The notes beneath the pieces are model-generated. The model saw nothing but the letters and a program-made list of their open reading frames with translations, was not told the DNA's origin and searched no databases. Position numbers and translations under genes: made by a program. Positions 21,463 through 29,554 of a stretch of 32,310 nt of DNA are shown piece after piece. The DNA is taken from the NCBI GenBank assembly GCA_021769425.1, contig JAETSX010000042.1, positions 1 through 32,310 of the forward strand, given 5' to 3'. Numbering within the stretch: the first letter of the stretch is position 1; each line of letters opens with the position of its first letter. The stretch is from Eubacterium sp. GTDB taxonomy: Bacteria > Bacillota > Clostridia > Lachnospirales > Lachnospiraceae.

Positions 21463-22707
21463 TCATCCAATTCCGCACATTTCATCCACGGAATCCAGAA
21501 TTGCCTTGATTTCCTTACTGCCTCCCGGCCGGTTTTTCACTAGATTTTCAATCTCTTTTCTGGCAGTTCTGATGTTCTCCGCCTGGCTTTCCATTCCGGC
21601 CCGCAACTTCTGACGCCGCACTAAAAGTTCATGCTTCACTTCTACCATCTCTTTCTTATCCATCAACGCCTTTGCCTGATGAATCCAGATCCTGGCATCG
21701 TAAAGGCGATATGCATGAAGCTGCCTTACCAGCTTATCGTTAAAATATTCCAGTTCATCATTGGTGCGTTCATATTTCTCCCGTTCCTTGACGGCCTCTA
21801 AATATTGATCCCAGATATAACCAAGTTCGTAGGAATTTTTGACATGATATTTCTCACAGGCATAATCCACCGCATTCGTTACATTCACATACTTGAACTT
21901 CACCTTATTCATCAGCACAATGGCGCGGTTAATGTTTGCCTGGGCTTTCTTCAGTTCCATTCCGTCATTCTGATAACGCCATACCATCATTCCGCCTAAA
22001 GCGCCGGAAATTAAGGCAGCAGCCACAAAAGGCATTTTAATGTCAAATTTCATTGCCAGGCCCAGAATCACAATGGCTGCAAATGCCGCTGCAAATACGC
22101 CGATCAGGGCATAGAGAAGCTTGTGAAGCAATTTCTTTTCCTGTTCCAGCGATTCCTGGTAATAATGCCATTCCTGTTTTTCCCCTTCTAAGTACTGCAT
22201 GTCACGCTTTACCACATTCTGGTAGGCTTCATTCTCCTGCAGACGTTTGATGATTTCAGGCATTTCATTTTCCAACTGTTCCATCTGGACAAACTGAGCG
22301 TCGGAAATGGTCTTTGCCCGGTTCAGATAGGCGTCCCTGGCCTCGTTTAAATTCAGGACATTCTGGGCCGTCTCCTGAATCTTTTCAAATTCCGTTTCCG
22401 GAAGGTTCTCGATAATCTGAATATCTGTCAGATAATCCGTCACCGTTTTATATTCCCGCTTGGTTTCCTCCAGATTCCTGGCCGCATCCATAATCTGTTC
22501 ACAGTATTCTGTTGCAATGCTTTTCTTATTCTTCTGCTCCTGACCCTTAGGATTGTCCCTGTTTTGTTCTGCAGCGGCATTCTGCCTGGCCTTCTGAATT
22601 TTTTTCGCCTTTTCTGCCCGCCTTTTGGAGCGCAAATCTATTTCTTCGCCGAATTCCAGTATTTCTTCCACATACTGGGGCTTTTTCTTTTTTCTGAATA
22701 ATCCCAT
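21463..22707 (-). CDS. Membrane coiled-coil protein of unknown function
   Basis: From ATG 22707 (a GTG at 22716 is an alternative) the protein has about 414 residues. A basic start MGLFRKKKKPQYVEEILEFG is followed by a charged region (25-65), a long helical/coiled-coil stretch (about 65-195), two adjacent hydrophobic segments (about 198-219 LYALIGVFAAAFAAIVILGL and 226-245 MPFVAAALISGALGGMMVW) and a second long coiled-coil region to the end. A hairpin of membrane helices with both coiled-coil arms in the cytoplasm is likely. I know no named function. It is the last gene of the DUF5717/DUF5716/TPR cluster and could be its membrane anchor. Confidence 0.82.
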   Translation of the reverse strand: MGLFRKKKKPQYVEEILEFGEEIDLRSKRRAEKAKKIQKARQNAAAEQNRDNPKGQEQKNKKSIATEYCEQIMDAARNLEETKREYKTVTDYLTDIQIIENLPETEFEKIQETAQNVLNLNEARDAYLNRAKTISDAQFVQMEQLENEMPEIIKRLQENEAYQNVVKRDMQYLEGEKQEWHYYQESLEQEKKLLHKLLYALIGVFAAAFAAIVILGLAMKFDIKMPFVAAALISGALGGMMVWRYQNDGMELKKAQANINRAIVLMNKVKFKYVNVTNAVDYACEKYHVKNSYELGYIWDQYLEAVKEREKYERTNDELEYFNDKLVRQLHAYRLYDARIWIHQAKALMDKKEMVEVKHELLVRRQKLRAGMESQAENIRTARKEIENLVKNRPGGSKEIKAILDSVDEMCGIG

Positions 22708-22803
22708 TTCACTCACTTTTCCTGTATTCTGTTCTTAGACACTGGGGCTTTTTCCTTTTCTGAACAATCCCATTTCACTCACTTTTCCTGTATTCTGTTC
22801 TTA
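22674..22803. repeat. 64-bp tandem duplication across a gene junction
   Basis: Copies 22674-22737 and 22741-22803 are nearly identical (period 67). Each contains the end of the TPR gene (RTEYRKSE-stop) and the start of the coiled-coil gene (MGLFRK). One copy therefore gives the real TPR end and the other the real coiled-coil start. The leftover start makes a 12-codon frame (22735-22773) that opens one base after the TPR stop. Confidence 0.88.
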
Positions 22804-23527
22804 AATTTTGCAGCACATCGTCCAACTGCTTTTCATAACCCGCCCGATCCGGAGAATTTCTCTTTTCCTTTAACTCCCGGCGAAGCTTCGCCGTACTGTC
22901 TGTTCCCCCTGGAAGATCCTGCCCGTCTCTGCAGGACAAAGCCAGAAGATATGCTTCCCTGCTCTCCGGTTTCTGCCCGATTTCATAAGCTTTGTCATAA
23001 CATTTCGCAGCCTGCTCAAACAGCATCTGTCTGGCGTAAGCCGTTCCCATATTGTGCCAGAGACGGCAGATTACCTGATCATCCTCATTTTTTCCGGCGG
23101 CCCTTGCAATGATTTTGCGATATTCTGAAATAGCGTCCCGGTATTTTTCCGATTTCAGCAAACGATCTCCCCGGAGCTTGGCTCTCTCTATCGGGCTCTT
23201 CTGTTCCATATTTTTTGCCGTGTTCAAAACCTGTTTCAATTCCTCCGAACTGTAGAACCCTCCGTCCTTTAAGATCTGCTCCATACACCAGCAGCCGCTT
23301 CTTTCCTGCCCAATGCCCTGTCTGAGTCTCTCCGAAAGCTCCTTCCTGCCCACTTCCTGTTCCAGCCACAGGCATAATTTCTCATGGAAAAAACTCTCCT
23401 CCAACACTCCCGTATTCTGGTACAGATAATAACACAATTCCTCAAAAGAGTACAGATTCAGCCGCTCTTCTTCCAGAAATAAGGGATGCTCTGCCGTTAC
23501 CTCTTCACATATCCACACTCTGCTCAT
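22775..23527 (-). CDS. TPR-repeat protein of the DUF5717/DUF5716 cluster
   Basis: The 250-residue cytoplasmic protein begins MSRVWICEEVTAEHPLFLEE and has a conserved-looking N-terminal helical region (ERLNLYSFEELCYYLYQNTG). Tetratricopeptide-like repeats follow at about 115-200 (GDRLLKSEKYRDAISEYRKI, then LWHNMGTAYARQMLFEQAAK). The last 40 residues are charged. The ATG overlaps the stop of the HSP70-fold gene as ATGA, so translation is coupled and the two proteins probably work together. TPRs commonly bind partner proteins or chaperones. No exact function is known to me. Confidence 0.85.
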   Translation of the reverse strand: MSRVWICEEVTAEHPLFLEEERLNLYSFEELCYYLYQNTGVLEESFFHEKLCLWLEQEVGRKELSERLRQGIGQERSGCWCMEQILKDGGFYSSEELKQVLNTAKNMEQKSPIERAKLRGDRLLKSEKYRDAISEYRKIIARAAGKNEDDQVICRLWHNMGTAYARQMLFEQAAKCYDKAYEIGQKPESREAYLLALSCRDGQDLPGGTDSTAKLRRELKEKRNSPDRAGYEKQLDDVLQNLRTEYRKSE

Positions 23528-24792
23528 GGCCCCGCTTCCTCACTTTCCTCAGACGAACCAATCTCATACTCCCATTCCCTGCCGCTTCCCGGTTTCAGTT
23601 CTCCCCAGCCCATATCCCGGATATTCAGAAGAATCTTTCCTTCTTCTCCGGAATACAGCGACAGGGACAGGCGGTATCTTCCCTGTTCGGATGGAGGAAG
23701 TTCCGTAAGCTCCAGGCTTTCGATTTTCGCTTCCCGGCTTCCAGGCTTTTGCATCCACAACTCTAAAAAGGGTTCCCCTTCCAACAGAATCCGCAGCTTT
23801 TTCCTGGCCTGATGCCGGTTGCATCCCGCCTCTAACAATGGATAAAAATAATCGCTGTCGCCTTTGGTAACTTTGATCAAAATATGTTCCAAAACCTTGT
23901 ATTCACAAAAATATACTGTCTGGGCCTCCTCCTGGTGCACTTCAAGCATTCCTGCATAGCAGGCGCCTTTGGTGTAGAGGTTTTTCCCCTGAAAAGCCCG
24001 CTTGCCCCGGCAGATCACCTGCAGGGATTCCTTCATCCAATTTCCTTCAAATCCGCTTCCAATCAGATAAACGGAAGATACGATTCTGCCGGACATAGAA
24101 TCCTGGAGCATACGCGCAAAGGCCAGGTCCCACTGGCTCACATCTTCCGGCAGCTTTCCCAAACACACTTCTTCCACCTCTGTCACCCTGGGCCTGGTCT
24201 TACGGTTGCTGATCAGCCGTTTCTGCCAGATTTCCTCTCCGCTGCAGGAATACAAAAGCACATCGTACTGCCACAGTTCCTGCTCCTGGCACACGGCATA
24301 GGCGTAAAAACTTTCCCGATGATCCTGAATAATCAGCTGTTCCTCAGAGAATCCCAGCCTCTCTGCCATATCCTGCAGCAGGATGACCACCTCGTCCGTT
24401 ACTTCTTTGATGGAAAACACGCATCTTTTCACGGCCTGCACGCCTTTTGCCGGAAGTGCAATCCGCAGCGCTTTTCTTAAGAATACAAAAAGCAGATCCT
24501 CCGCCTGATATTCTTTATCCAGAAAAACTGTTTTGTGCTTTAATGCTTTATCTAACAGATATTCCGCATAAATACCCTCTCCGGTTTCCGCCAAACGGCT
24601 GGCTTCCTCTCCGAAACACCATTTTCCGGTCAGTTTCCGCTTGCAGATGGCCGTAGGGATCCGGTACAATTCCGTCCCTGCCACAGTGCTTCTCGTCTCC
24701 GGTTCCGTCATTCCCTGATGGTAACAGCTTACCTGCGTCCATCGGTTCCCCAGTTCTATTCCAATATACCATTCGCCTGCTGCCGGCTTCAT
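23524..24792 (-). CDS. DUF5716-like protein with degenerate HSP70/actin ATPase fold
   Basis: The 422-residue protein shows ASKHA landmarks: a phosphate-1-like strand YIGIELGNRWTQVSCY (9-24), a connect-like HRESFYAYA (158-166), an adenosine-like YLIGSGFEG (243-251) and the following TKGACYAGM (274-282). The phosphate-2 position reads YDVLLYSCSGEE, lacking the DxGGGT pattern, and the first loop has Glu in place of the usual Asp, so ATP hydrolysis may be weak or lost. The last 120 residues look beta-rich, reminiscent of an HSP70 substrate domain. I associate it with the DUF5716 family from memory. It lies 27 bases after the giant DUF5717-like gene. Confidence 0.75.
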   Translation of the reverse strand: MKPAAGEWYIGIELGNRWTQVSCYHQGMTEPETRSTVAGTELYRIPTAICKRKLTGKWCFGEEASRLAETGEGIYAEYLLDKALKHKTVFLDKEYQAEDLLFVFLRKALRIALPAKGVQAVKRCVFSIKEVTDEVVILLQDMAERLGFSEEQLIIQDHRESFYAYAVCQEQELWQYDVLLYSCSGEEIWQKRLISNRKTRPRVTEVEEVCLGKLPEDVSQWDLAFARMLQDSMSGRIVSSVYLIGSGFEGNWMKESLQVICRGKRAFQGKNLYTKGACYAGMLEVHQEEAQTVYFCEYKVLEHILIKVTKGDSDYFYPLLEAGCNRHQARKKLRILLEGEPFLELWMQKPGSREAKIESLELTELPPSEQGRYRLSLSLYSGEEGKILLNIRDMGWGELKPGSGREWEYEIGSSEESEEAGP

Positions 24793-24819
24793 TCTCTCAC
24801 CTGCTTTCCCCGGCGTCTC

Positions 24820-27800
24820 TTACAAAACGCCGAATTCTTCCCGTACCAGCCCGTCCAGCCGCCCATAGGTTTCCAGCCGTTCCATCAATGTGATCTCATC
24901 CTCCATCTGCCGGCTTACCATCATGTCATTGACTAAATCATAACGGCTGCCCTCCGCATGGGTGCAAAGCTCCTGATTCTGTACCTGTCCGCTTTCTGTC
25001 ACTATCCATTTCCCGTCTTTTTCTTCTTTGATATAGTAGGGAATCTTCTCTCCGTAAAAAACCAAAAAATCTTTGACAAAAACGCCCTCATACATTTCCT
25101 GCATTTTCTGCTCTGTGTATTCAGAACCTCCCACTGGAAGATAGCTTAAGATTACATTCCCGCCGGGACTGGTGCGGTACTCCAGAAATACCTTGTCATG
25201 ATACAGATATTTTCCTGCAAAGAATTCCGGCAGGGATTTATAAAATCCAAAATATTTTTCCCGGGAAATAAATTCTTCCAATATCCGCTCGGCGCAGGCA
25301 GTTTCCTCTTCTGTCATGGTATGGCCAGAGGCGCACCATTTTAAGAATCCCAGCCTGCACACTTCATTCATCTCCACGCCCTCTTTCATCAGCTTGTAGA
25401 TTTTTTCAAATGCATAATCTGACACCACTGCATCTTTGGCCACAAACTGAGAAGCCATCCAGGTCAGACAGGCCAGTACAATGATCTCCCTGCCCATGTT
25501 CTCCCCATAACTCTCAAAAATCTTTTCAAGATTTGCAGAAAATTCTTCCGTATACAAAAACTGTATCAGGCAGCGTTCCTCCAGTCCATAGGTATCCAGC
25601 TCAAAATCGCAGGCAGCCTGCCACAATTTCATCATTTCTTCCAGATTTCCATGGAAATACCGGCACATATAATTCAAAATACGTTCGTTGTACTTGCCCC
25701 GCAAAAACACGCTCCGGCACAATCCCAGCAAAAATTCATCCGGCGCCTCTTCCGCATCCAGTTCTTCCATTCGATGGCTGATTACATAAACCAGTTTTGG
25801 CGCAGAAATATTTTCACTTCCGTAAGATAAAAGGAGTTCATAAGCGCGTTTGTAGTGGCGTCTCGCCACCAAAAGCTCCATAATCCGCTCCCTGGCCCGC
25901 TTCTGCATTCCTTCAAAGGATACAGACAGCAAAAATTCATCCAATGCTTCCCCGGTATAATTATAATAAAAATAAGCAATCATCTGGGGCCTTAATTCTT
26001 CCCGGTATTCATCGCTGATTGCTTCTGATTCCATCATCATCTGCAGATTGGGCAGATCCTCCGGTACATAGGTTTGCCAGATTTTCTTCCCGTCAAAATA
26101 TTTCAGTAAATAGGGCAGCTTCTCCTTTGCCGCATTCCTGCCCTTGTCCATAAATTTCTCGCTGTCCATCAAAGGAACCACAGACAGCTCTTCCCGGGGC
26201 AGATAACGGTTTCCTCTGGAATCCTCCAGCAAAATCTGATAGGAGCTGCTATAGAGGTTCACATACCCGATTCCGTGGTTTAAAGGGATTCTCTGCTCCT
26301 TTTTCAGCGGATGCTGGCGCACCACAAGCTGCATCGCCCTGGCATCCTTACAGGTAACCTGATGGGTAAAAATGATCTTTGACAAATGCCCTGCCATCTC
26401 GTCTGTAATCAATTCCGGCGTCAGAACCTCTCTGTAAACCACGGACATATCTTCATCAATTCTTCCGGCCTGAAGCTGCTTTACCACAAATACTTCCATA
26501 TTTTTCCGATAATGGGAATAATTGCTTTTCCAGGAAGATTTATGTTCAATCATGGCCCGGTACAGCATGGCCTGGGGACGGTAGGCAAGGCTGCTGTGAT
26601 ACTGGAAATAAATCACAACAGTCTTGGGCATCTTCGCCAATTGCTTTCTCCCAGCTGACAGCATCCATGCCTCGTAGATTCCGGCAATGCGCAGCTCTTC
26701 CCCAATGCCTAAGTGATACCATTTCCAATACTCTTTCCCATAACAATTCCACTTCATACAGTAACTGCAGACGGCCTGGAGCATTTCTTTCTCCGGAAAC
26801 ACATCATAACAGGCGCACAGAATCCGATACCAGACGGGATCAAAACTTGAAATCTCCGGCACAATCTGACAGACCTGTTCGGCCATTCCTCTGGTAAGGG
26901 CATGACGTTTGGCTGCCCAGTAGAGGATATTCCGCTCAAACAAGTCTGCCCGGTACATAAGAAAAGGTTCCTTCTCCACAATCCGGTAAGCCTCCAGATA
27001 AAGGATGGGGCTTTGCCCTGCCGCCGCAATCTGTCTGGCAATAATCTCAAGCTTCCTTCCCTTGCTGTAGTTTAATTCTTCGTCCAGAAACAGCAGCATC
27101 CATAAAAGCATGTTGTTTTCCTGGTTCTTGTGATAAATTTTCCGTATTTTTCCTGTTATCTTATTGACATAGACAGGCTCCGGTTCCCGCAGAGTGCACA
27201 GATACAGATAATAGGCATACAGCGGAGATTCTTTCTCTACGTCATGCTTGGGAAAAGCGTCCAGCGCCCATTCCCCCTCCTGCCGCTGCTTATTTACCAG
27301 AAACGCCTGCGCCCTGGCCAGCAGATACCAGAGATTCCCCGGGTCAAGCTGATTCAGTTCATCTAATTTCTTTACAGTTTGCTTAGTCCAGACCCCCGTT
27401 ACCATCTTGCGAAGCCCGAAATCCAGATAAAGATTCAGCAATTCCACCTGTTTTCTGCGAATTGCAAGATCCGTCCGCGCTTTGTTTTGGCTTCTCTGAA
27501 AAACACAGATTTCCACCTGCTCCGTCTGAAAAGGCGTTTTCAGGGTAATCCTGCCGAAATTTCTGCCTCCGTGAAGATGCTCCGCCAGAACCATATACTC
27601 TGCCGCACCATGGCTTCCCACGAAATCTTCTGTAGTAATCACTTTCTTCACAGGGCTAAGCCACGGGGCATCGCTGCTCATCTCAATGGCGATATATCCC
27701 CATTCTTCTTTTTTCAGGGTAATATGCTGCTTGATCGTTTCATTCAGCCGGTAGAATTCTCTCTGGGCTTCCTCAATCCGAAACACCACCCGTTTCTTTT

Positions 27801-28359
27801 TCCGGGAAGCAATCAGAAATTCCTCTACCTGGGCCATGGTACAGGGCTTGCGCTTTAACATCCGGTACAGCAGCCGCTCCTCTGTTTCCTGAGGTTTGAA
27901 AATATGGACAAATTCCGGCTGCCCAAACACCCGCACCGCTTCCTCATAAGAATTCTGCGCCAGATTGGCAAAATCAAAAATACTCTTTATTTTCCCCACC
28001 GAACTGTTGACATAATTCCTGGAAACAGACACAGAAAAAGGAAGGTCGTATTCCCCTTGATTACTGATGATATGAAAGCTTCCTTTCTGGGAATCGCCTT
28101 CTGTCAGACCTTCACTGTGAAAGACAAATCTCTGTATAATTGTTTCTCCCTGAAACTTCGGGCTGTAACATTCCATCCTGGGGCTGGAAGAACAAATTAT
28201 GCCCTGAACTGTCATATTCCCGGCGCTTTGTATCTTGAATTCACCGGTATAATCTGTTCCTTCCACCACATCCAATTCCAGTTGCTCTTCGGAAAACTGA
28301 AGTATGGAGGAATTGCTTCTGCATATTCCCGCCGCCAGTTCCTCTAATTTCTTCTGCAA
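24820..28359 (-). CDS. DUF5717-like giant protein (beta-sandwich + alpha-solenoid)
   Basis: The 1179-residue protein has no signal peptide or membrane segment. Residues about 15-115 (LQFSEEQLELDVVEGTDYTG onwards) and about 190-300 (DAPWLSPVKKVI, HLHGGRNFGRITLKTPF) look like two Ig-type beta-sandwiches. From about 310 to 1100 it is nearly all helical, with repeat-like pairs (WYLLARAQAFLVNKQ, YAYYLYLCTLREPEP, RHYKRAYELLLSYGSENI), suggesting a TPR-like solenoid scaffold. A beta-rich end follows (KVFLEYRTSPGGNVILSYLP). The start is TTG at 28357-28359; no in-frame ATG exists upstream. It is the first gene of the cluster and has its own promoter. I recall such proteins as DUF5717 in Lachnospiraceae. 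Confidence 0.78.
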   Translation of the reverse strand: MQKKLEELAAGICRSNSSILQFSEEQLELDVVEGTDYTGEFKIQSAGNMTVQGIICSSSPRMECYSPKFQGETIIQRFVFHSEGLTEGDSQKGSFHIISNQGEYDLPFSVSVSRNYVNSSVGKIKSIFDFANLAQNSYEEAVRVFGQPEFVHIFKPQETEERLLYRMLKRKPCTMAQVEEFLIASRKKKRVVFRIEEAQREFYRLNETIKQHITLKKEEWGYIAIEMSSDAPWLSPVKKVITTEDFVGSHGAAEYMVLAEHLHGGRNFGRITLKTPFQTEQVEICVFQRSQNKARTDLAIRRKQVELLNLYLDFGLRKMVTGVWTKQTVKKLDELNQLDPGNLWYLLARAQAFLVNKQRQEGEWALDAFPKHDVEKESPLYAYYLYLCTLREPEPVYVNKITGKIRKIYHKNQENNMLLWMLLFLDEELNYSKGRKLEIIARQIAAAGQSPILYLEAYRIVEKEPFLMYRADLFERNILYWAAKRHALTRGMAEQVCQIVPEISSFDPVWYRILCACYDVFPEKEMLQAVCSYCMKWNCYGKEYWKWYHLGIGEELRIAGIYEAWMLSAGRKQLAKMPKTVVIYFQYHSSLAYRPQAMLYRAMIEHKSSWKSNYSHYRKNMEVFVVKQLQAGRIDEDMSVVYREVLTPELITDEMAGHLSKIIFTHQVTCKDARAMQLVVRQHPLKKEQRIPLNHGIGYVNLYSSSYQILLEDSRGNRYLPREELSVVPLMDSEKFMDKGRNAAKEKLPYLLKYFDGKKIWQTYVPEDLPNLQMMMESEAISDEYREELRPQMIAYFYYNYTGEALDEFLLSVSFEGMQKRARERIMELLVARRHYKRAYELLLSYGSENISAPKLVYVISHRMEELDAEEAPDEFLLGLCRSVFLRGKYNERILNYMCRYFHGNLEEMMKLWQAACDFELDTYGLEERCLIQFLYTEEFSANLEKIFESYGENMGREIIVLACLTWMASQFVAKDAVVSDYAFEKIYKLMKEGVEMNEVCRLGFLKWCASGHTMTEEETACAERILEEFISREKYFGFYKSLPEFFAGKYLYHDKVFLEYRTSPGGNVILSYLPVGGSEYTEQKMQEMYEGVFVKDFLVFYGEKIPYYIKEEKDGKWIVTESGQVQNQELCTHAEGSRYDLVNDMMVSRQMEDEITLMERLETYGRLDGLVREEFGVL

Positions 28360-28415: not shown

Positions 28416-28444
28416 ATTATAAACCATTCATACATTTGTGTAAA
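28416..28444 (-). promoter_or_regulatory. Promoter of the DUF5717 cluster
   Basis: On the minus strand TTTACA (28444-28439) and TATAAT (28421-28416) are exactly 17 bases apart, about 57 bases before the TTG start of the giant gene. No operator-like dyad is visible, which suggests housekeeping expression. Confidence 0.7.
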
Positions 28445-28462
28445 TATTTTTGGAGGAAATTT

Positions 28463-29554
28463 ATGTTACAGCACAAGGATTATTTTCACGGAAGTGATTT
28501 AGAAAAAATTGAACAGATCTACGGCATCAAAAAAGAAGAAATTACAAGTTTCAGCGCCAATGTAAATCCCCTGGGAATTTCCCCTCTTCTGAAAGAAACG
28601 CTGGCAAACCACATCGACGCCATCACCTCTTATCCGGATCGGGAATACCTTTCCCTGCGCAGATGCATTGCAGATTATGTGGGCGCCGATTATGAAAATA
28701 TCATTATGGGCAACGGCTCCACAGAGCTGATTTCTCTTTTTATCCAGATTGAGCATCCTGCAAAGGCTCTGATTATCGGGCCTACTTATTCCGAATACGA
28801 ACGGGAAATCGCTTTGGGCGGCGGAACCTGTCTCTATTATCCCCTGCAGGAAGAACTGGATTTTGTGCTGGATGTGGAACATTTTACGAAACAATTGAAT
28901 GAAAGCCTTAATCTGTTAGTCATCTGCAATCCCAACAACCCCACTTCCGGCGCCATCTCCCGGAAAACCATGCGGAAAATCCTGGATGTGTGCAAACAGC
29001 ATGACATTTTTGTTATGGTGGATGAAACTTATGTGGAATTTGCAGATAATTATGAGGAAATCACCTCAGTTCCCCTGACTGCTTTTTACAATAACATTGT
29101 CATCTTGCGGGGAACTTCCAAATTTTTTGCGGCTCCGGGACTTCGGCTGGGCTATGCCGTCACCGGAAACCGGGATTTTATCAAAGCCATCAACACCCGG
29201 AAAAATCCCTGGACCATCAATTCCCTGGCAGTCATTGCAGGGGAAATTATGTTTCGGGACACTGCCTACATTGCCAAAACCAAAGCATTGATTTCCAAAG
29301 AACGCACTCGGATGCACCAATTGTTCTCCCAGGACAGCCGCTTTAAGGTTTACCCGCCCAGCGGCAATTTTATGCTGGTGCGCCTTCTGTCTGAGGACAT
29401 GACCTCTGGGGAGCTGTTTGAGCGGGCAATCCGGGAAAAAATGATGATCCGGGACTGCTCCACCTTTCCGTTTCTGGATCATAAGTATATCAGGTTCTGT
29501 TTTATGAGTGAGGAAATGAATGACAGACTGGCGGAATGCATTATGAGGAAATGA
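28463..29554 (+). CDS. PLP-dependent aminotransferase/decarboxylase (HisC/CobD-like)
   Basis: From ATG 28463 (GGAGG at 28452-28456) the protein has 363 residues of fold-type I. The PLP lysine is Lys220 in RGTSKFFAAPGLRLGY; CNPNNPTSG (155-163) and VDETYVEFA with Asp187 and Tyr190 complete the cofactor site. HGSDLEKIE and FSANVNPLG near the start recall L-threonine-O-3-phosphate decarboxylase (CobD), while the overall pattern also fits histidinol-phosphate aminotransferase. No his or cob genes are adjacent, so the substrate cannot be decided here. A longer frame from 28436 lacks a ribosome binding site. Confidence 0.85.
   Translation: MLQHKDYFHGSDLEKIEQIYGIKKEEITSFSANVNPLGISPLLKETLANHIDAITSYPDREYLSLRRCIADYVGADYENIIMGNGSTELISLFIQIEHPAKALIIGPTYSEYEREIALGGGTCLYYPLQEELDFVLDVEHFTKQLNESLNLLVICNPNNPTSGAISRKTMRKILDVCKQHDIFVMVDETYVEFADNYEEITSVPLTAFYNNIVILRGTSKFFAAPGLRLGYAVTGNRDFIKAINTRKNPWTINSLAVIAGEIMFRDTAYIAKTKALISKERTRMHQLFSQDSRFKVYPPSGNFMLVRLLSEDMTSGELFERAIREKMMIRDCSTFPFLDHKYIRFCFMSEEMNDRLAECIMRK

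Follow-up and report, generated by a model that had tools for sequence, protein, structure and literature searches.

The locus described here can be set beside four systems that are already known. In the yeast ribosome-associated complex (RAC), Ssz1 has been solved with ATP bound and pairs with an Hsp40 (4gni and 5mb9). Besides the DnaK-GrpE-DnaJ system, additional DnaK-GrpE pairs are known, for example MxDnaK2-MXAN_6672 of Myxococcus (PMC11019930). MSP/ASH domains occur in HYDIN, CEP192 SPD-2 and SCS2 and are set beside PapD-like domains, and FlhF/FlhG serve the siting of flagella. What is left, then, when a chaperone machine loses its enzymes and keeps its scaffold together with a dead paralogue? 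A natural example appears to be offered by a 32,310-nucleotide stretch of DNA from Eubacterium sp. of the Lachnospiraceae (GenBank assembly GCA_021769425.1, contig JAETSX010000042.1, positions 1 to 32,310 of the forward strand; hereafter the window). Four consecutive minus-strand genes encode a large scaffold-like protein, DUF5717, a degenerate Hsp70, DUF5716, a tetratricopeptide repeat (TPR) protein, and a membrane hairpin protein named MCC here. The first three form a conserved core, probably the remainder of a longer operon with active Hsp70s and a GrpE-domain protein; this unreduced state is still alive in sister families, and the steps of reduction are directly comparable. MCC is accessory and follows the native flagellum. 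An earlier note, made by a model from the letters of the window, had missed both the reduction and the flagellar link, and had proposed a chaperone-like or cytoskeletal complex of all four products.

Each of the four systems differs from this locus. Compared with Ssz1, DUF5716 is bacterial, lacks the phosphate-binding motifs and stands beside a scaffold of immunoglobulin (Ig)-like and TPR-like parts; a search for J domains found no DnaJ family in the four window proteins up to an E-value (E) of 1, and none in 10 long-operon proteins up to E 0.01. Like the Myxococcus pair, the long operon supplies a further Hsp70 set along with a GrpE-domain gene of its own, but it holds three intact Hsp70s and one degenerate one, a large GrpE-domain protein and the Ig/TPR scaffold; relative to DnaK-GrpE systems, the active parts have been lost from the Lachnospiraceae locus. 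DUF5717 shares 6-16% identity with the three MSP/ASH proteins, and its domains of this kind are fused to a TPR-like solenoid. Although FlhF and a candidate FlhG occur in the native flagellar locus of the window's own genome (the one native locus inspected), MCC matches neither family and is located elsewhere, its link to flagella being co-occurrence with native FlhA alone.

The window's DUF5716 matches the Pfam model DUF5716_C far above cut-off, DUF5717 doing the same for its own models, so that both labels given in the earlier note hold. Its reading of DUF5716 as an ASKHA-fold protein without DxGGGT in the phosphate-2 (P2) loop is likewise borne out, and its word "chaperone-like" agrees with an Hsp70 origin by profile and by structure. 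The DUF5716 profile (A1) finds DnaK at E 8.5e-6, the nucleotide-binding domain has the actin-like ATPase fold, and residues 7-414 align structurally to DnaK 2-504. The beta part of the substrate-binding domain is present, residues 358-405 matching that of DnaK weakly when taken alone (i-E 4.5) and as part of the joint match. The helical lid is missing in the predicted model, in which the last strand covers 406-411 and residues 414-422 have a predicted local distance difference test score (pLDDT) below 50. Equivalents of Lys70, Glu171 and Thr199 are absent in 14/14 DUF5716 proteins, the P2 loop is broken, and the other catalytic and phosphate motifs, DLGTTNS among them, were not found; Asp8 (11/14), Asp194 (10/14) and the first glycine of the adenosine loop (14/14) persist. 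Hsp110 and Ssz1 are among the structural matches. DUF5716 is thus an Hsp70 by descent that lacks catalytic residues and lid, and so is not counted as a working Hsp70.

In the sister families, 20 loci were fetched and 14 of them extended downstream. The usual order is DUF5717 N-part (about 400 aa), DUF5717 C-part (about 900 aa), HspA (about 558 aa), a GrpE-domain protein, HspB (457-542 aa), HspC (about 546 aa), HspD (about 692 aa) and the TPR protein. The two DUF5717 halves are mostly separate genes there, although they make one open reading frame (ORF) in L219, L230, L232 and L233, and are a single gene in Lachnospiraceae. The TPR protein, mostly of about 387 aa and with the same N-terminal module, was found in 13/14 extensions, the ORF list of the other ending earlier; an MCC homologue comes last in 4/14 (families f81, f84 and f96), whereas in f98 and f91 none was seen behind the TPR gene. 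The GrpE domain lies at the C-terminus and scores 43.9 and 46.1 bits against a curated cut-off of 25.8, in a protein of 564-645 aa in 13/14 aligned sequences (A9) and of 279 aa in f81. The one scanned for its remaining part (L229:3100-4968) has a long N-terminal extension free of Pfam matches; such proteins might act as exchange factors for the Hsp70s encoded alongside. At phylum level, the profile of this long GrpE-domain protein hit 43/249 genomes; all 43 matches cover the C-terminal portion of the profile and fall in frames of 178-254 aa, read as ordinary GrpE. Genomes with the long operon have two GrpE genes (10/10) and those without it one (10/10, five of them Lachnospiraceae including the window's own, where the canonical DnaK directly follows the single GrpE on contig 6). 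The order has its exceptions: L225 has the N-part only, L234 no adjoining Hsp70, and L224 and L228 have inserted genes, while in L220, L223 and L230 the operon is cut by contig ends. L225 and L234, where DUF5717 parts stand apart from Hsp70 genes, are candidates for independent reductions.

The direction of change can be read from a tree of 64 Hsp70 rows (IQ-TREE, mixture model), in which HspA, HspC, HspD, DnaK and DUF5716 each form a single clade. DUF5716 is nested within HspB (together 100/100), itself placed among the Hsp70s of the operon, its sister being the HspB of f81 (100/99), followed by that of f96 (100/99). Because HspB is paraphyletic to DUF5716, the long operon is read as the older state and the Lachnospiraceae form as a reduction of it. 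Asp8, Lys70, Glu171, Asp194 and Thr199 are retained in 29/29 HspA, HspC and HspD proteins, one HspC having His for Asn13, whereas Lys70 is missing from HspB in 12/12. Since HspB already lacks this residue and DUF5716 nests in it, the degenerate paralogue predates the reduction and is the very one that was kept. Sequence and tree support a Lachnospiraceae locus from which the active HspA, HspC and HspD have gone together with the GrpE-domain protein, the dead Hsp70 being retained.

What evolution has conserved is a unit of three genes. Of 40 sources (39 fetched family loci and the window), 38 are uninterrupted, and 38/38 of these show the gene order DUF5717-DUF5716-TPR, the remaining two being halves of one genome split between contigs, and all three genes are present in 79/80 named genome loci, the one miss falling at a contig end. 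Neighbourhood conservation across Lachnospiraceae, which the earlier note had set as a check against scattered homologues, is thereby found. DUF5717 and DUF5716 each occur in 244/250 Lachnospiraceae genomes (199/202 of the good ones), mostly as single copies. Five of the 250 (G318, G380, G387, G417 and G512) have neither by Pfam models; two of these are 98-99% complete, and they represent either real losses or strongly diverged copies. Median pairwise identity within the family is just 26-28% for the core proteins and 30% for MCC, with few invariant residues; these proteins evolve fast. A restriction to Lachnospiraceae was suggested by C-terminal models, which in a class search hit 10/291 genomes (10/10 family members, 0/281 others), and was overturned by an N-terminal model, which in an order search hit 62/116 (11/11 family members and 51/105 genomes from outside the family, of which one scored below the curated threshold). 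The order-level profile matched 0/234 class genomes of other orders, so no spread beyond the order was seen in that set. That family and sister-family units are the same locus is supported by valS, which follows both (L082, L103 and L105 in the family; L236, L246 and L247 in sister families, the latter read from sequence rather than by profile).

DUF5717 (PF18984, E 0; PF18983, E 9e-98; DUF5717_N and DUF5717) yields an AlphaFold2 model with a pLDDT of 87.5. As had been proposed from the letters alone, it has two Ig-like domains (19-124 and 193-288), and an extended helical solenoid of TPR-like kind covers residues 293-655 and 733-1050; to these the model adds small beta regions at 665-730 and 1055-1127. 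The Ig-like domains take the MSP/ASH/PapD-like fold in structural searches (Foldseek/VIA), with matches to ciliary central-apparatus ASH domains, HYDIN, CEP192 and the SCS2 MSP domain, and for the first the fit to SCS2 and FimC is at about 2 Å. For the solenoid the likeness is to TPR proteins, Ctr9 and Ski3 among them; the whole model served as query, so the later parts were barely probed. A separate C-part from one sister family matches TPR_19 above cut-off (E 9e-7). The DUF5717 sequence found nothing firm among solved structures (best E 0.0079), and a fold match to 9hmf_K, a flagellar scaffold chain from Campylobacter (E 2e-5, template modelling score 0.11-0.14), was set aside as a generic solenoid match. 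The model thus portrays DUF5717 as an Ig-plus-solenoid scaffold, a likeness of fold that gives no function. The third gene falls just under the cut-off of TPR_12 (29.6 against 30.1 bits, E 8.1e-7), while its family profile (A4) matches designed TPRs at E 1.5e-45 and, more weakly, co-chaperone TPRs including STI1 and CHIP.

MCC has two hydrophobic helices separated by a loop of 6-11 residues in 20/20 relatives, the membrane hairpin that had been expected. Basic residues number 2-6 in each 15-residue flank against 0-2 in the loop (20/20), by which both long ends should be cytoplasmic; the charged flanks look putatively coiled-coil-like. No Pfam or NCBIfam family matches MCC above cut-off, and its sequence found nothing firm among solved structures. 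A profile finds it in 67/150 family genomes, 65 of them strongly, with no match elsewhere in the other 83. It adjoins the core in 73/80 best-matching named loci; five of the seven others are cut by contig ends, and L145 and L162 truly lack it next to the TPR gene.

Which genomes, then, keep it? From the 150, 80 were picked for completeness, 40 carriers and 40 non-carriers (in 78/80, completeness is 90% or more and contamination 5% or less). FlhA is present in 40/40 carriers and in 7/40 non-carriers (Fisher test, 1e-15). In an FlhA tree these seven are separated from 25/25 carrier sequences by a long 100/100 branch; the remaining 15 carrier proteins were assigned to the native type solely on their scores, which span 862-903 bits where the other type gives 826-862. 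The seven (L395 of G335, L397 of G303, G305, G327, G339, G346 and G366) have a deeply different FlhA, and in the two inspected loci, L395 and L397, FliA adjoins it by profile. A similar FliA-FlhA neighbourhood is reported for Eubacterium siraeum, of another family (PMC3720852). This pattern suggests that the seven genomes gained replacement flagella after the native ones were lost.

On a family tree of DUF5717 and DUF5716 from 64 genomes, rooted on f81, MCC and native FlhA share one pattern (38/38 against 0/26) with eight changes each. Independent pairs on well-supported branches agree in 7/7 (p 0.016), and 0/20,000 random eight-loss patterns equal the observed one, the best reaching 58/64. 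The MCC changes are read as losses, since in f81, f84 and f96 the last gene of the operon is an MCC homologue. All 40 non-carriers retain DUF5717 and DUF5716, which speaks against a general decay of the locus. MCC thus tracks the native flagellum, a conclusion supported by co-occurrence: it was found only where native FlhA was found. The non-carrier status comprises 16 direct negatives, two genomes with weak partial matches (G333, E 5e-4; G348, E 8e-6) and 22 inferred from the draw, 13 of which were inspected at the locus; the contigs of G315, G325 and G329 stop short of the MCC place, and absence there was taken from the 150-genome profile search. Left off the tree were 14/40 non-carriers with no core position and the carriers G344 (no DUF5717 on the contig piece) and G381 (split over contigs). 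G318, which is 93% complete and has neither core nor MCC, lies outside the 80-genome set, and six further loci as well as L396 and L399 were fetched and left unused.

In the window's own genome FlhA is on contig 166 and the window on contig 24, which places MCC outside the flagellar locus. That locus runs flhA, flhF and a MinD-like gene, then pilZ and che genes (names other than these first three were read by eye), in agreement with the cheBAWCD genes that follow pilZ in the Lachnospiraceae flagellar locus, as reported in PMC3720852. FlhF scores 213 bits against the TIGR03499 cut-off of 174; the adjoining MinD-family protein stays under the MinD cut-offs and is read as a candidate FlhG.

Taken together, these data lead us to favour, with moderate confidence, a core that would be an ATP-independent cytoplasmic scaffold derived from a gutted Hsp70/GrpE machine, which MCC would tie to flagella. 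DUF5717 would provide its backbone. DUF5716, through its lidless substrate-binding domain, may hold a fixed partner peptide without ATP cycling, as Ssz1 does in yeast RAC, and the TPR protein could be a second adaptor. The MCC hairpin would link this scaffold to the base of native flagella, whose locus in the window's own genome includes FlhF and the candidate FlhG, and the core would have a second role beyond flagella in lineages that have none. Several points weigh against such a view. Because all 40 non-carriers keep DUF5717 and DUF5716, flagella are not the core's only role. The retained Asp8, Asp194 and glycine may still allow DUF5716 to bind a nucleotide. The DUF5717 model has a predicted template modelling score of only 0.61, and Ig and TPR are common folds. 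In the Hsp70 tree, many rows of HspB and DUF5716 are unusual in amino-acid composition, and there are long branches, flagged for L086 with L092 (inside DUF5716) and for L232 with L233 (inside HspB). The family phylogeny comes from a quick method applied to two genes that share this operon, and about half of its rows are odd in make-up. Finally, "native" FlhA was defined only after the FlhA tree had been seen; when any FlhA is counted, FlhA requires 12 changes, and of the 7 pairs a mean of 5.9 agree and none conflict, with a median p of 0.031 (0.016-0.063).

A more specific form of this scaffold can be put forward tentatively. The core would be a non-enzymatic landmark of the cell, in which a DUF5717 girder, the dead Hsp70 and the TPR protein mark a site where MCC, retained solely along with native flagella of the FlhF type, places or anchors subterminal flagella, with another envelope or polarity function in non-motile members. 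Such a siting role is attractive because flagella of motile Eubacterium and Roseburia are subterminal (PMC3720852).

A reader may prefer to see the core as an active co-chaperone working with ordinary DnaK, whether as an Hsp110-like exchange factor, a client holdase or a client-delivery platform. The descent of DUF5716, its Hsp110 and Ssz1 matches, the weaker STI1 and CHIP matches of the TPR protein and the nucleotide-site residues that persist all fit this idea, as does the presence of GrpE and DnaK in 5/5 family genomes tested. We nevertheless hold it to be rather unlikely. It was the operon's own GrpE and active Hsp70s that were lost and the degenerate one that stayed; no J domain was found in the four window proteins; and the low identity within one family would be unusual for a partner of DnaK.

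For the flagellar part only, the link could be indirect, MCC and flagella disappearing side by side as genomes shrink generally or as motility is given up, while having no functional connection. Non-motile lineages do lose many genes together, MCC lies outside the flagellar cluster, and the comparison with FlhA stands without other accessory genes as a control. This too seems doubtful to us, given that the 40 non-carriers kept both neighbouring core genes searched, that the changes coincide in all seven independent pairs, and that seven genomes with a different flagellum are also without MCC. An MCC that serves the native flagellum therefore stays our preferred reading.

The obligate four-protein complex of the earlier note is improbable. 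Its four genes do lie adjacent in the window and in most of the best-matching named loci, so the arrangement stands, while MCC as a fixed member does not, being absent from 83 of the 150 genomes and found nowhere else in them; the conserved unit has three genes. A metabolic or sporulation role defined by the neighbourhood is very improbable: the aminotransferase is a frequent neighbour and purC/F/B or valS often follow, but PIG-L is rare, the downstream genes vary between genera, and Roseburia and Pseudobutyrivibrio, two genera described as not forming spores, have the core. The purine genes and valS were accordingly rejected as functional partners, and PIG-L, found in 2/40 sources (the window and the same-genus locus L099) and 5/80 named loci, as a fifth member. 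A defence system was also set aside: no PADLOC anti-phage model matched the four window proteins up to E 0.01, and for three long-operon Hsp70s the sole match is PDC-M61B (E 5e-4 to 8e-9), attributed to an Hsp70 portion that both have.

Why should this locus matter? For this core set of a family prominent in the gut, a full-text literature search turned up no published function, in agreement with the earlier note; the search, whose scope excludes preprints and most subscription papers, also gave nothing for DUF5717, the long operon or the reduced form, and its sole DUF5716 match was an unrelated paper. The parts are known folds, and it is the long operon and its reduced form that appear to be undescribed. 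The match between MCC and the native flagellum is a testable lead on how subterminal flagella are organised, and the title of PMC3720852 terms the flagellins of the group's motile commensals pro-inflammatory.

The features of the region are collected in Table 1. The four genes were confirmed as ORFs where the earlier note had placed them, with the spacings of 27 bp, a 4-bp ATGA overlap and, before MCC, 58 bp. The in-frame ATG of MCC corresponds to the residue conserved as first methionine among relatives. The promoter that had been called good is present as a site, whereas the scan of the region as a whole gave 11 promoter-like sites against 10.6 in shuffles and is by itself not significant.

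Table 1. Coordinates of the four-gene unit and its neighbours in the window
Feature	Positions	Strand	Description	Basis
DUF5717 scaffold	28359-24820	minus	1179 aa, TTG start	ORF and Pfam
DUF5716 (= HspB)	24792-23524	minus	422 aa; lidless Hsp70 descendant without key ATPase residues	
TPR protein (putative adaptor)	23527-22775	minus	250 aa; family-specific N-terminal module	
MCC (fourth gene)	22716-21463	minus	417 aa from GTG; accessory membrane hairpin protein	
MCC alternative start	22707		in-frame ATG, 9 bases in; 414 aa	
Promoter-like site before DUF5717	28444-28416	minus	TTTACA-17-TATAAT	11/12 matches
CobD/HisC-like aminotransferase	28436-29554	plus	divergent, outside the unit	TIGR01140, 280.1 bits, below cut-off 290.55
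PIG-L family protein	21418-20669	minus	after the unit; hydrophobic N-terminal stretch	Pfam

The aminotransferase is found at the locus in 22/40 family sources (as a profile match, not always adjoining DUF5717) and in 61/80 named loci. It is mostly divergent and adjoining DUF5717, and occurs also in the sister-family loci L217-L222, L227, L232 and L233; its place in the locus is an old synteny. In seven sister-family loci (L220, L223, L226, L228, L229, L231 and L234) a different membrane protein comes first in the long operon, unmatched by the MCC profile and with a hydrophobic segment near residue 15 and, in 5/7, two more near 112 and 134; membrane linkage of the operon may thus recur with different proteins. 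As for the window's own genome, it measures 4.9 Mb, and among named loci the DUF5716 search came nearest with a Lachnospiraceae isolate (95% identity) and Petralouisia muris (91%).

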